64,000 nucleotides of DNA from Marinilabilia sp. (GTDB lineage: Bacteria; Bacteroidota; Bacteroidia; Bacteroidales; Marinilabiliaceae), in assembly GCF_016278715.1 (NCBI RefSeq), contig NZ_JADQBH010000033.1, positions 1-64,000 of the forward strand. Reading direction: 5' to 3'. The notes beneath the pieces are model-generated. The model saw only the letters and a program-made list of their open reading frames with translations, was not told the DNA's origin and ran no database searches. Position 1 is the first letter of the stretch; each line of letters begins with the position of its first letter. Of the stretch, positions 32,002-37,536 are shown piece by piece. The position numbers were made by a program, and so were the translations under genes.

Positions 32002-33201
32002 CTAATAATTCAACGCCTTACCCGTGGCAGCCAGAAAAATATCCAGCGATCGTAATTTTTCCTTTATGGCAATGAGCTTGTCCAGCCTGATAAATCCGAT
32101 TCGGTAGTGATACCGTGGACCGTGGTATTCTTCAGATACCGATTTGAACTCAAAGTTCTCAAGCACTTCGGGATTGCTGTACCTCAGATAGACTTCGATG
32201 GCACCCTCTTTGAAATACTTGAATCCTTCGAAATAGTTCGCCTTCTTATATTCGTAACGGTAATGATGTGCAAGGGCTGTAATATCTGATAATACCGCTG
32301 ACCCGGTAGGATGACCCCCGGCTCCTTTGCCAAACATAAACTGTTTGTCGTAGGCCACTCCTTTTATTACCACCCCGTTGAATTCATCTTCCACATTGTA
32401 GATGTATTTGTCGCGGGTTACAAAACGGGGCAAAACAAACAGGGCTATTTTTTTGTCGCGCAAACGTTCCACCTGACCCACGAGTTTAATTTTGTAATCC
32501 TTCTCACGGGCGTAATTGATGTCAAACTCCGAAATATTTGATATGCCGTAGTTTAGAACCTCATCAGGCGATACCACCACACCAAAACTGTGCATGGTAA
32601 GAATTATCAGTTTGAAAAGCGAATCGAAGCCGTCCACATCAAAGGTGGGGTTGGATTCGGCAAAACCCAGCTCCTGGGCTTTTTTCAGGGCATTGGGATA
32701 GCTTTCATTATTATCAAAAATTTTGGAAAGAATGTAGTTGGATGAGCCGTTGAGGATTCCGGTTACGGAGAGCAGCAGGTCGTTGTCGTAATACTCCTCA
32801 AGGTTGCGTATGACCGGAATACTGCCGCACGCAGATGCCTCGTACAGCAGGGATACATTGTTTTCTTTGGCGAGAGAGACCATTTCGCTGAGGTTTTCGG
32901 CAAGCATTTTTTTATTGGCCGACACCACATTTTTCCCGTTTTGCAGCGCCTTTTTGACAATAAAATAGGCATCATCCGCATTGTCAATTAATTCTACAAT
33001 GGTGTTGATGCCTTCGTCATTGAGGATTTTATCAGGTTCGTAACAAAACATTTCGTCCGGAAGCGACCGCATAACGTGTCGTTTTACACAGATTCTTTTT
33101 ACTTTGGCGTCCAGTGCCGGGCTTTTAGCCAATACGTCGTAGAGACCCTGACCGACAACACCAAATCCAAAAAGACCGATATTTAATTTTTGCCGTGACA
33201 T
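32002..33201 (-). CDS. hom: Homoserine dehydrogenase
   Basis: NAD(P)H-dependent reduction of aspartate semialdehyde to homoserine, the branch to Met and Thr; 399 aa. Rossmann start NIGLFGFGVVGQGLYDVL, catalytic region YEASACGSIPVIRNLEEYY, TGILNGSSNYIL and ESNPTFDVDGFDSLFKLIIL are all intact, as is GAGGHPTGSAVLSDI. The C-terminal ~90 residues replace the usual ACT domain by a short region with no clear ACT match. Downstream of metY in the same operon (106-nt gap with a hairpin), so its expression should share the metY leader control. Confidence 0.95.
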   Translation of the reverse strand: MSRQKLNIGLFGFGVVGQGLYDVLAKSPALDAKVKRICVKRHVMRSLPDEMFCYEPDKILNDEGINTIVELIDNADDAYFIVKKALQNGKNVVSANKKMLAENLSEMVSLAKENNVSLLYEASACGSIPVIRNLEEYYDNDLLLSVTGILNGSSNYILSKIFDNNESYPNALKKAQELGFAESNPTFDVDGFDSLFKLIILTMHSFGVVVSPDEVLNYGISNISEFDINYAREKDYKIKLVGQVERLRDKKIALFVLPRFVTRDKYIYNVEDEFNGVVIKGVAYDKQFMFGKGAGGHPTGSAVLSDITALAHHYRYEYKKANYFEGFKYFKEGAIEVYLRYSNPEVLENFEFKSVSEEYHGPRYHYRIGFIRLDKLIAIKEKLRSLDIFLAATGKALNY

Positions 33202-33308: not shown

Positions 33309-34622
<1,314 letters not shown>

Positions 34623-34641
34623 TTATAGGTTAAATAAAAAT

Positions 34642-34676
34642 AAAAAATTCCTGACCGGTTGCGTTGACGCACCGGT
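34642..34676 (-). terminator. metY attenuator terminator hairpin (segments 3:4)
   Basis: Minus strand: ACCGGTGCG, loop TCAA, CGC, a bulged A, ACCGGT (34676 down to 34654), then CAGGAA and TTTTTTATTTTT. It lies 32 nt before the metY start codon. The six-nt spacer before the U-run is longer than ideal, which tempers confidence that it is a full intrinsic terminator. Confidence 0.65.
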
Positions 34677-34784
34677 ATCTGATTAATTTGAATTCAAATT
34701 TTATCGGAAAATGTTGGAAAGATACAGATATGATGCGTCAACAAGACTTATGCCATGAACATAGACATTCGTCCCATCATCATA
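34663..34784 (-). promoter_or_regulatory. metY leader antiterminator and protector pairings
   Basis: Three mutually exclusive stems. Segment 1, GGTATGATG (34786-34778), lies in the Met codons of the leader peptide and pairs with segment 2, CATCATATC (34735-34727). Segment 2 also includes GTTGACGCA (34742-34734), right after the leader stop codon, which pairs perfectly over 9 nt with TGCGTCAAC (34671-34663), the 5' half of the terminator hairpin. Ribosome stalling on Met codons would free segment 2 to form the antiterminator; reaching the stop codon would cover segment 2 and let the terminator form. Confidence 0.7.
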
Positions 34785-34861
34785 CCCGTTGTGGTAATGA
34801 AGGAAATTCCGCAGTTGATTGTTGCGGCAAAAGAAATAATATTTTCGATGTTTTGCTTCAT
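34748..34861 (-). CDS. Met-rich leader peptide of the metY-hom operon
   Basis: A 37-residue ORF too short for the ORF track. It begins ATG AAG CAA and ends in ITTTGMMMGRMSMFMA then TAA: six of the last eleven residues are Met, after three Thr codons. The ATG lies about 20 nt after a promoter candidate, and the stop lies just before the segment that pairs with the terminator hairpin. This is the arrangement of a classical attenuation leader peptide. No initiation signal beyond AT-rich sequence is visible. The Thr codons could add response to Thr, fitting hom in the operon. The reading is inference from sequence; no homologue was recalled. Confidence 0.75.
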   Translation of the reverse strand: MKQNIENIISFAATINCGISFITTTGMMMGRMSMFMA

Positions 34862-34880
34862 TCAATAAATTATCTCTTTG

Positions 34881-34911
34881 CAAATATGGACAACTTTATC
34901 CACAATTCAAA
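34881..34911 (-). promoter_or_regulatory. Candidate promoter of the metY-hom leader transcript
   Basis: On the minus strand TTTG (34911-34908), a 19-nt spacer, then CATATTTG (34888-34881), close to the Bacteroidota -33 TTTG / -7 TAnnTTTG pattern (first T replaced by C). Transcription would start roughly 10 nt before the leader peptide ATG. Confidence 0.5.
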
Positions 34912-35513: not shown

Positions 35514-35900
35514 ATGAAAAAATTAGTATTCACTTTAGCTTTGGTAGCAGGATTTGCATTTGCAGCAAACAACGTAAATGCACAAACCAACTCTGATAAT
35601 GATCAGAAACAGGATACCACACAAACCGTTCGGTCAGGTTTTGTTGACAATAACGGAGACGGAGTATGTGACAATTATGATGGCAAACGTGCCGGAAAAG
35701 GATTAGGCCCGGGCAATGGGCACGGACAAGGCCGTGGACACGGGAAAGGTCTCGGACGCCGGGGTAATGGTCAGGGCCGTGGTGGTAATGGAAATTATAT
35801 TGATACCAATAACAATGGAACCTGTGACAATCAGGAAAATGGTACCGGACGTTTGCGTGATGGAAGTGGGAATGGCCGTGTAAACGCGCCCGCTGAATAA
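35514..35900 (+). CDS. Small secreted protein with two EF-hand-like loops and a Gly/Arg-rich linker
   Basis: 128 aa: signal peptide (MKKLVFTLALVAGFAFAANNVNAQ), then FVDNNGDGVCDNYD, a Gly/Arg/His/Lys-rich stretch (about residues 60-95), and YIDTNNNGTCDNQE. The two loops have the DxNxDG-type spacing of calcium-binding repeats, each with a Cys (possible disulfide or metal ligand). Function unknown. It is followed 100 nt later by an ECF sigma factor operon, so it may be part of that regulon; the sensor gene of that operon has a similar Gly/Arg-rich tail. Confidence 0.7.
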   Translation: MKKLVFTLALVAGFAFAANNVNAQTNSDNDQKQDTTQTVRSGFVDNNGDGVCDNYDGKRAGKGLGPGNGHGQGRGHGKGLGRRGNGQGRGGNGNYIDTNNNGTCDNQENGTGRLRDGSGNGRVNAPAE

Positions 35901-36000
35901 CCATTGAAATTTTGTAATTTCGTTGGTGGAATGGTAAAGACATAAGTTTATGGGACGTGCCATCTCCACCAGCGAATTAACAATTACTGTAATATTTTAC

Positions 36001-36546
36001 ATGCAGACAAACCCGAAAGACAGTGATTTGGTACAACAGGCGCAAGATGGGCAAACAGAGGCCTTTTCTGTGCTGGTGGACAGATATCGTCAGAAGGTAT
36101 TTCAAACCTGCATGGGTTTTTTGCACAATACCGATGATGCCGAGGACCTGACACAGGAGATATTCGTAAAGGCCTGGAATGCGCTAAAATCCTTTGACGG
36201 ACGTGCTGCTTTTTCAACCTGGCTTTACCGGATAGCTGTGAATAAAGCCATTAATCAGACACGAAGGAATAAGCTGAGGTCATTTACCGGTATCAATGAT
36301 GAGGTTACAGACTCTGGATTTGCCGACGATGATGCGGAAAGCAAACTGTTGCGCAGCGAACAACGTGCGCAAATAAAAAGTGCTGTGAATCGGTTAAAAT
36401 CCAACCAAAAGAAGGCTTTTGTTTTGTTTTATTATCAGGAATTAAGTCTGATAGAAGTTGCAGAGATTTTGGAAATGTCACCGAAGGCCACAGAAAGTTT
36501 GATTTTTAGGTCCAGAAAGAAATTGCAGAAATTGTTGTCCCGGTAA
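36001..36546 (+). CDS. ECF-type RNA polymerase sigma factor
   Basis: 181 aa from the ATG at 36001; the tracked start at 35950 adds 17 residues unlike the family. Region 2 is clear (AFSVLVDRYRQKVFQTCMGF, NTDDAEDLTQEIFVKAWNAL, FSTWLYRIAVNKAINQTRR), and region 4 ends ELSLIEVAEILEMSPKATES with the helix-turn-helix. Together with the next two genes it forms a sigma / anti-sigma / periplasmic sensor operon like CnrYXH. The signal is unknown; metal or envelope stress is suggested by the sensor type. Confidence 0.93.
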   Translation: MQTNPKDSDLVQQAQDGQTEAFSVLVDRYRQKVFQTCMGFLHNTDDAEDLTQEIFVKAWNALKSFDGRAAFSTWLYRIAVNKAINQTRRNKLRSFTGINDEVTDSGFADDDAESKLLRSEQRAQIKSAVNRLKSNQKKAFVLFYYQELSLIEVAEILEMSPKATESLIFRSRKKLQKLLSR

Positions 36547-36548
36547 AA

Positions 36549-36980
36549 ATGAAGATGATGAAGTGTAAAGATTTTAACAGTCAGTTAGCGATGCTGCAGG
36601 ATATGGGCGAGATTCCTGCTGAGATGCAGGAACACATGAAGCATTGCGATTCGTGCAATGAGGCTTTTGAGAAAACTCATCTGCTCTTTGATTTTGTGAA
36701 AGAAGAGAAAAGTCAAAAAGTTTCTCCTTTCGTCACAACAAGGATTATGGGGCAGATAGAACGCGTTGAGAAACCTTCATGGTTTACCCGGCCTGCGCTG
36801 GTGGTGGTTATGTCAATCGCTGTTTTGGTGCTGGGATTTTTTTCTGCAAGTCTTTTCTCCGCGCAGGAGTCTTCAAAACTGGCTGATTCAACCGAAATTA
36901 TTGCCACGGACTATTTTTTCTCTGAGAATCCTGGATCACAATTAGAAGAAATCTGGCTTAATTCTTATTCCTATGAGTAA
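36549..36980 (+). CDS. Anti-sigma factor with zinc-binding N-terminus
   Basis: 143-aa membrane protein starting 2 nt after the sigma gene. The cytoplasmic N-terminus carries the ZAS motif HxxxCxxC (EHMKHCDSCNEAF), then one transmembrane segment (ALVVVMSIAVLVLGFFSASLF) and a short periplasmic tail. This is the standard layout of ECF anti-sigma factors, holding the sigma factor at the membrane until a signal arrives. Its 3' end overlaps the sensor gene by 8 nt, so translation is probably coupled. Confidence 0.85.
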   Translation: MKMMKCKDFNSQLAMLQDMGEIPAEMQEHMKHCDSCNEAFEKTHLLFDFVKEEKSQKVSPFVTTRIMGQIERVEKPSWFTRPALVVVMSIAVLVLGFFSASLFSAQESSKLADSTEIIATDYFFSENPGSQLEEIWLNSYSYE

Positions 36981-37536
36981 AAATCGGATTATAATTACAA
37001 TTCTTATTCTGGCAGTCGCTTTTGTGGGGGGATGGGGTATTTACCGATGGTGGAACCCTGTTTCCGGTTCTTCATCAGTTGGTTTGAGTAATGAGCCTGT
37101 TTATCGGATTATTCCCGGGCAAACAAATGCAGGAGTTGGAGCCGGATTTAACCGCATGGTAAAAGTGCTTGATTTTTCGGAAGACCAAATAGCGATCTTT
37201 ACCGGAATCGAACGCAAATACAGGCAACAGATGGAGTTGTACATGGCACAGCTCGACAGTATTGACCTGAATATTCTGGAAGAAGTTAAAAAGGCGAATC
37301 CCGATAGAGGGCGATTAGACTCGCTTTCTGCTACAGCCGGAGAAATTCAATATGCCCTGAAAAAGGCTACCTCAGACCACTTTTTGGAGGTTAAGAATAT
37401 TTGTACCCCTGAACAAAAGCAACTTTTTAATGAGGTAATATCCGATATTGACCAGTACCGCAGGGGGCGTGGACCCGGAAGAGGACAAGGCCCCAGACAC
37501 AATGGTCAAAGAAGAGGATGGAGGAATTCCAGATAA
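36973..37536 (+). CDS. CnrX/Spy-like periplasmic sensor protein
   Basis: 187 aa with an N-terminal membrane anchor (IIITILILAVAFVGGWGIY) and a helical periplasmic domain with the long-helix pattern of heavy-metal sensor/Spy-type proteins (LDFSEDQIAIFTGIERKYRQ, LTPEQ-type CTPEQKQLFNEVISD). The C-terminus is Gly/Arg-rich (RRGRGPGRGQGP), echoing the small secreted protein upstream. It overlaps the anti-sigma gene and should sense the signal for the sigma factor. Whether it binds metal is inferred only from the family. Confidence 0.8.
   Translation: MSKNRIIITILILAVAFVGGWGIYRWWNPVSGSSSVGLSNEPVYRIIPGQTNAGVGAGFNRMVKVLDFSEDQIAIFTGIERKYRQQMELYMAQLDSIDLNILEEVKKANPDRGRLDSLSATAGEIQYALKKATSDHFLEVKNICTPEQKQLFNEVISDIDQYRRGRGPGRGQGPRHNGQRRGWRNSR

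Follow-up and report, generated by a model that had tools for sequence, protein, structure and literature searches.

A Met-rich leader ORF lies between a promoter and metY-hom

In the window, the 64,000-nucleotide stretch of Marinilabilia sp. DNA analysed here, a short Met-rich reading frame separates a promoter-like element from metY on the minus strand, raising the question of whether it controls the genes behind it and by what means. The first-pass annotation had read this region as a Met-codon attenuator of metY-hom, and every part of its description is present in the sequence. The promoter-like element is a good match to the Bacteroidota type (34881-34911, minus strand; TTTG-N19-CATATTTG), with a -33 box TTTG at 34911-34908, a spacer of 19 nt, and a -7 box CATATTTG at 34888-34881 that agrees at 7/8 positions with the Bacteroidota consensus TAnnTTTG. 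Transcription would be expected to start near 34875. Next comes the leader ORF of 37 codons (34861-34748, minus strand; translation MKQNIENIISFAATINCGISFITTTGMMMGRMSMFMA), which has Thr at residues 23-25 and Met at residues 27-29, 32, 34, and 36; all six Met fall within its final eleven residues (TTTGMMMGRMSMFMA). A further 137 nt separate the leader stop from metY (33309-34610, minus strand; TIGR01326, 686.7 bits against a cut-off of 495.1), which is followed by its presumed operon partner hom, encoding homoserine dehydrogenase (32002-33201, minus strand; NF004976, 314.6 bits against a cut-off of 205). MetY belongs to the O-acetylhomoserine sulfhydrylase / cysteine synthase family, so its product fits the codons of the leader. 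The metY upstream region has no match at gathering score to any Rfam family, T-box and amino-acid leader families included, and the single such match across the whole window is a tRNA. Divergent from metY, a gene on the plus strand (35514-37536) encodes a Gly-rich protein that is secreted, carries DxNxDG-like motifs, and has no match in NCBIfam; beside it are a gene for an ECF-type sigma factor and two more small genes.

The leader ORF and its Met/Cys codons are conserved

Using 127 unique metY upstream loci, drawn from public genomes and 71 genomes of the window's family, we searched for upstream ATG-initiated ORFs with at least five Met+Cys in 11 residues, with dinucleotide shuffles as the control. 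Such leader ORFs are found in 69/127 of these Bacteroidota regions, compared with 0.4 in shuffles. When residues are counted singly, 28 regions are enriched for Met (0 in shuffles), 20 for Cys (0.2), 11 for Ala (0.2), and five for Thr (0). The Ala signal probably comes from TGC repeats read in another frame. Thr, which the first-pass annotation had allowed for as a second signal, is enriched only in the nearest relatives of the window (group A), although hom is the gene after metY in groups A, B, and C alike; thus, Thr is at most a possible second regulatory codon.

The Met-run leader is kept throughout the genus and in most of the family, where the leaders form three groups. Group A (the window plus its closest relatives) ends in GMMMGRMSM(F)MA preceded by a Thr run, while group B ends in MMMCMMMTR and similar sequences and group C in MMCRMMMTL and similar sequences. 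The proposal that the leader is read through its Met codons fits the window and is too narrow beyond it, since the predicted regulatory codons elsewhere in the family and phylum are Met plus Cys. Within the ORF, all group A indels are 3 or 6 nt long, whereas those between the stop and metY are mostly of 1 nt, and this keeping of the frame suggests that the leader is translated. A promoter with the same boxes and spacing lies just 5' of the leader ATG in 8/8 group A loci, the window's own and those of its 7 nearest relatives, and in 11/16 group B loci.

Two mutually exclusive helices covary among relatives

The RNA between the Met codons and metY contains four segments that can pair in alternative ways. 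Segment 1, GGTATGATG (34786-34778, minus strand), lies over Gly26-Met28 and forms the 5' arm of a protector helix by pairing, with one G-U, with CATCATATC (34734-34726). The latter is part of segment 2, TGACGCATCATATCTG (34725-34740, minus strand), which is common to the protector and the antiterminator: its partner is either segment 1 over the Met codons or segment 3, CAGATACCGGTGCGTCAAC (34663-34681, minus strand), the 3' arm of the antiterminator. Around this second choice, GTTGACGCA (34742-34734), the segment after the leader stop, pairs 9/9 with TGCGTCAAC (34671-34663), in the 5' half of a hairpin, ACCGGTGCG-TCAA-CGC(a)ACCGGT (34654-34676, minus strand). This 3:4 hairpin and the antiterminator are mutually exclusive.

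Comparison of relatives supports both helices. Among 25 distinct sequences, 96.4% of cells in the antiterminator 2:3 helix are paired, compared with at most 43% when the arms are slid, and the helix carries 25 two-sided changes, compared with 9.1 after shuffling. Inspection by eye shows that in two loci (L085 and L086) both antiterminator arms are one base shorter, a deletion on one side being balanced by a loss on the other. In groups B and C, 85.4% of cells are paired in the protector helix that surrounds the leader stop (at most 45% when slid), and the helix covaries there, with ACAA/TTGT in place of ACAC/GTGT.

Folding yields the two alternative states. The RNA from 34790 to 34641 folds into the protector and the 3:4 hairpin (-43.5 kcal/mol, z -3.6), whereas 34750 to 34641, from which the Met codons are left out, folds into the 2:3 helix (-25.2 kcal/mol, z -3.1), which is the switch expected if a Met-stalled ribosome covers segment 1. 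The 3:4 hairpin alone has a folding energy of -12.6 kcal/mol (z -3.3), and similar hairpins are present in most of groups B and C, in a comparison that took in group C in part. RNA 3' of the leader is strongly structured in the family, at a mean z of about -3, and less so elsewhere (about -1.5); complementarity of the ORF end to downstream RNA, taken as a general measure, is not above shuffles. Together, the upstream alignment and the folds bear out the first-pass proposal of mutually exclusive protector and antiterminator stems, with the ORF, its Met-codon run, and the covarying helices all conserved in relatives.

The switch is attached to metY

We built a covariance model on groups A, B, and C and ran it on the 71 family genomes. 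One strong match per genome (E <=2e-7) is found in 36/71, including all five of the genus, and every strong match lies about 35-190 nt 5' of metY, while the remaining matches are weak (E >0.001). A single strong match per genome, each before metY, indicates a regulator dedicated to one gene, as had been claimed for metY-hom. At one locus (L104, G051:C231), about 145 nt have been inserted between the 3:4 hairpin and metY and the switch is intact; that it is kept despite the insertion fits action at a distance. At L011, L013, and further loci of the family, a second metY copy lacks the leader and stands directly behind another gene.

Searches for further leaders in the Marinilabilia sp. genome returned patterns of other kinds. 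A second Met-run pattern (G000:C42) sits within a long coding frame and was ruled out as a leader. A search with His codons gave no convincing candidate: one match is in a long coding frame, one is antisense to such a frame, and two have no his gene seen behind them.

Ribosome stalling as the proposed mechanism

These observations lead us to propose, with a probability of roughly 0.8, that the region acts on metY-hom as a ribosome-mediated attenuator and reads the supply of methionyl-tRNA. Comparison shows the parts that such a device would use: a Met-codon leader that appears to be translated, an adjoining promoter, and two competing, covarying helices, attached to metY only. When methionine is plentiful, the ribosome would reach the leader stop and leave, segment 1 would pair with segment 2, and the 3:4 hairpin would form and turn metY off. 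If charged tRNA-Met runs short, the ribosome would stall at the Met codons and cover segment 1, leaving segment 2 to pair with segment 3, so that the 3:4 hairpin would not form and metY-hom would be expressed.

The output of the switch is harder to assign. The first-pass annotation had named the hairpin and the T-rich run behind it as a terminator. Both elements are present, but the U-rich stretch (34631-34647, minus strand) begins 6 nt past the stem, and scanning the window for terminators yields nothing that qualifies as a canonical intrinsic one, the 3:4 hairpin included. Most 3:4-like hairpins of groups B and C likewise have no U-tract on their 3' side. With the tract offset in the window and mostly missing in relatives, the final step could be intrinsic, Rho-dependent, or translational. 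Across the wider set, a terminator-like hairpin follows 19/70 leaders, compared with 8.6 in shuffles, and two distant loci, L071 and L025, have clear intrinsic terminators after their Met/Cys leaders. In L025, the 335 nt 5' of metY hold two tandem Met/Cys leader ORFs, and behind each stands a near-perfect intrinsic terminator of about -20 kcal/mol; the two terminators share an identical stem sequence, and each has a 5' arm that pairs with the 3' portion of the leader ORF.

It is possible, though a good deal less probable than termination, that the same stalling logic acts on metY translation or mRNA stability. The lack of a U-tract adjacent to the hairpin in the window, and mostly of any in groups B and C, would suit such an output. 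However, the hairpin ends about 45 nt 5' of the metY ATG, which is far for masking of the start site, with about 145 nt more in between at L104, and the strong intrinsic terminators of L025 and L071 speak against it as well. Because of these clear terminators we favour control of transcription, and the decision is most likely made there through a weak or Rho-assisted terminator, Rho perhaps taking part in the lineage of the window; this is the weakest step of the proposed attenuator.

Codon-specific starvation sensing also has to be weighed against action of the peptide itself, either as a nascent chain that arrests its ribosome or as a small protein with a function of its own. The almost constant C-terminus in group A is what such a peptide would be expected to show, but the N-termini diverge, the phylum-wide commonality is Met/Cys content alone rather than sequence, and nucleotide conservation at the Met codons is explained by their pairing with segment 2. 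We consider this reading improbable. A chance ORF beside chance complementarity, which descent could have spread among the nearest relatives taken on their own, is contradicted by the shuffle controls, the covariation, and the recurrence across the phylum with differing peptide sequences, and has a negligible likelihood.

Outside the family, SAM-I aptamers precede the leader

SAM-I (RF00162) has no match at gathering score in the window or in the rest of its genome, nor in five other genomes of the same order in the class sample; a broader sample of the order does include metY loci that carry it. Using cmscan, we found SAM-I aptamers before 46/80 metY loci, all outside the window's family. In 45/46 of these a short ORF begins 7-15 nt past the aptamer, nearly always at 8-12 nt; the Met/Cys threshold is reached by 28 of these ORFs. 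In the 29 loci checked, an extended P1 pairing spans from about 7 nt before the ORF ATG up to the ATG. At L032, one of the loci among L014-L084, the aptamer occupies positions 1107-1214 and the ORF starts about 10 nt on. None of 18 SAM aptamers preceding metH in a class-wide sample (metH recognized by eye from its N-terminus) is followed at 7-15 nt by an ORF of at least 8 codons, indicating that the arrangement is tied to metY and not to SAM aptamers generally.

The spacing of aptamer and ORF, together with a P1 that reaches the ORF start, suggests a riboswitch that gates translation of an amino-acid-sensing leader. At these loci, high SAM would probably shut off leader translation. We lean, with some reserve, towards a two-input device at Bacteroidota metY, in which P1 of SAM-I covers the start of the Met/Cys leader, SAM gates its reading, and charged tRNA-Met and tRNA-Cys set where the ribosome stops, the window's family having lost the aptamer and sensing by codons alone. 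If so, high SAM would put the device in a state like that of a trp attenuator without translation, always off. A Labilibaculum locus (L080), which has an aptamer and a leader ending in MMRMQRMMRMI, looks like an intermediate between aptamer-bearing and leader-only loci, and loss of the aptamer from the window's family, with the leader retained, would be the simplest explanation.

A further set of post-aptamer leaders, mostly from Sphingobacterium (L064, L067, L070, L076, L081, L084, and L047), ends in a constant (T/S/A)RMR before the stop. These leaders have few Met/Cys codons, and the TCGTC after their stop can pair with a downstream GACGAC.

Discussion

Leader-peptide attenuation has been worked out mostly in Proteobacteria and Actinobacteria. 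Judged by comparative sequence evidence, the element upstream of metY-hom is a real, conserved, and dedicated regulator that appears to work like a ribosome-mediated attenuator, and it provides a well-supported Bacteroidota case in which Met codons, or Met/Cys codons in relatives, would serve methionine synthesis. If the layout of SAM aptamer plus leader works as proposed, the output of a riboswitch would be another sensor, and one leader would integrate SAM and aminoacyl-tRNAs. Bacteroidota largely do without Shine-Dalgarno initiation, and these loci open to test how the phylum builds such switches and why some of its lineages use codons alone.

In the main texts of the open-access literature, we found no account of metY being served by a Met or Met/Cys leader, in line with the first-pass annotation, which knew of no Met-codon metY attenuator in Bacteroidota, and none of a SAM riboswitch joined to a Met/Cys leader. 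Within the phylum, "strong clues" for leader-peptide attenuation have been reported at amino-acid operons of Flavobacterium psychrophilum, with pheA and hisG among the conserved structured leaders (PMC9723704); these share phylum and kind of operon with the present case, and the main text of that paper names no metY or Met leader. In B. thetaiotaomicron, sORFs occur within long 5' UTRs (PMC7366714).

The SAM-I riboswitch likewise controls genes of methionine metabolism, and many metY homologues outside the window's family are among its targets, although before metY it adjoins a leader ORF and not the gene, and it is absent from the window. The nearest likeness to these SAM-plus-leader loci, as opposed to the window, is the B12 riboswitch that controls a translated uORF 5' of ppe2 in M. 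tuberculosis (PMC11260477). There too a riboswitch acts on a uORF needed for the downstream gene, but the ligand is B12 and not SAM, the downstream gene is reached via reinitiation, and the uORF is without starvation-sensing codons.

Cys-codon leader peptides are described in Actinobacteria, in cys operons (PMC1262725) and in the cysS uORF (PMC8632094). Like the leader studied here, they carry sulfur amino acid codons close to the stop of a short ORF, and the Mycobacterium leaders are also without an evident terminator, Rho having been suggested (PMC1262725, PMC8632094). They differ in phylum and in the genes served, whereas the window switch has covarying alternative helices and a dominance of Met codons.

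A GC-rich hairpin followed directly by a U-tract, as in the classical trp type, is lacking in the window and found only in L025 and L071; we therefore do not class the window switch as a member of that type. It differs from the trp, his, thr, and leu attenuators of Proteobacteria in its Met codons (Met/Cys in relatives), its occurrence in Bacteroidota, and its lack of both a canonical intrinsic terminator and an Rfam leader match. In the broad sense of an attenuator, the window has a Met-codon leader ORF that is presumably translated, exclusive helices, a 5' promoter by sequence match, and a codirectional downstream target. Its resemblance to the Proteobacteria systems lies in the core of the device, a leader ORF of cognate codons joined to a mutually exclusive protector and antiterminator.
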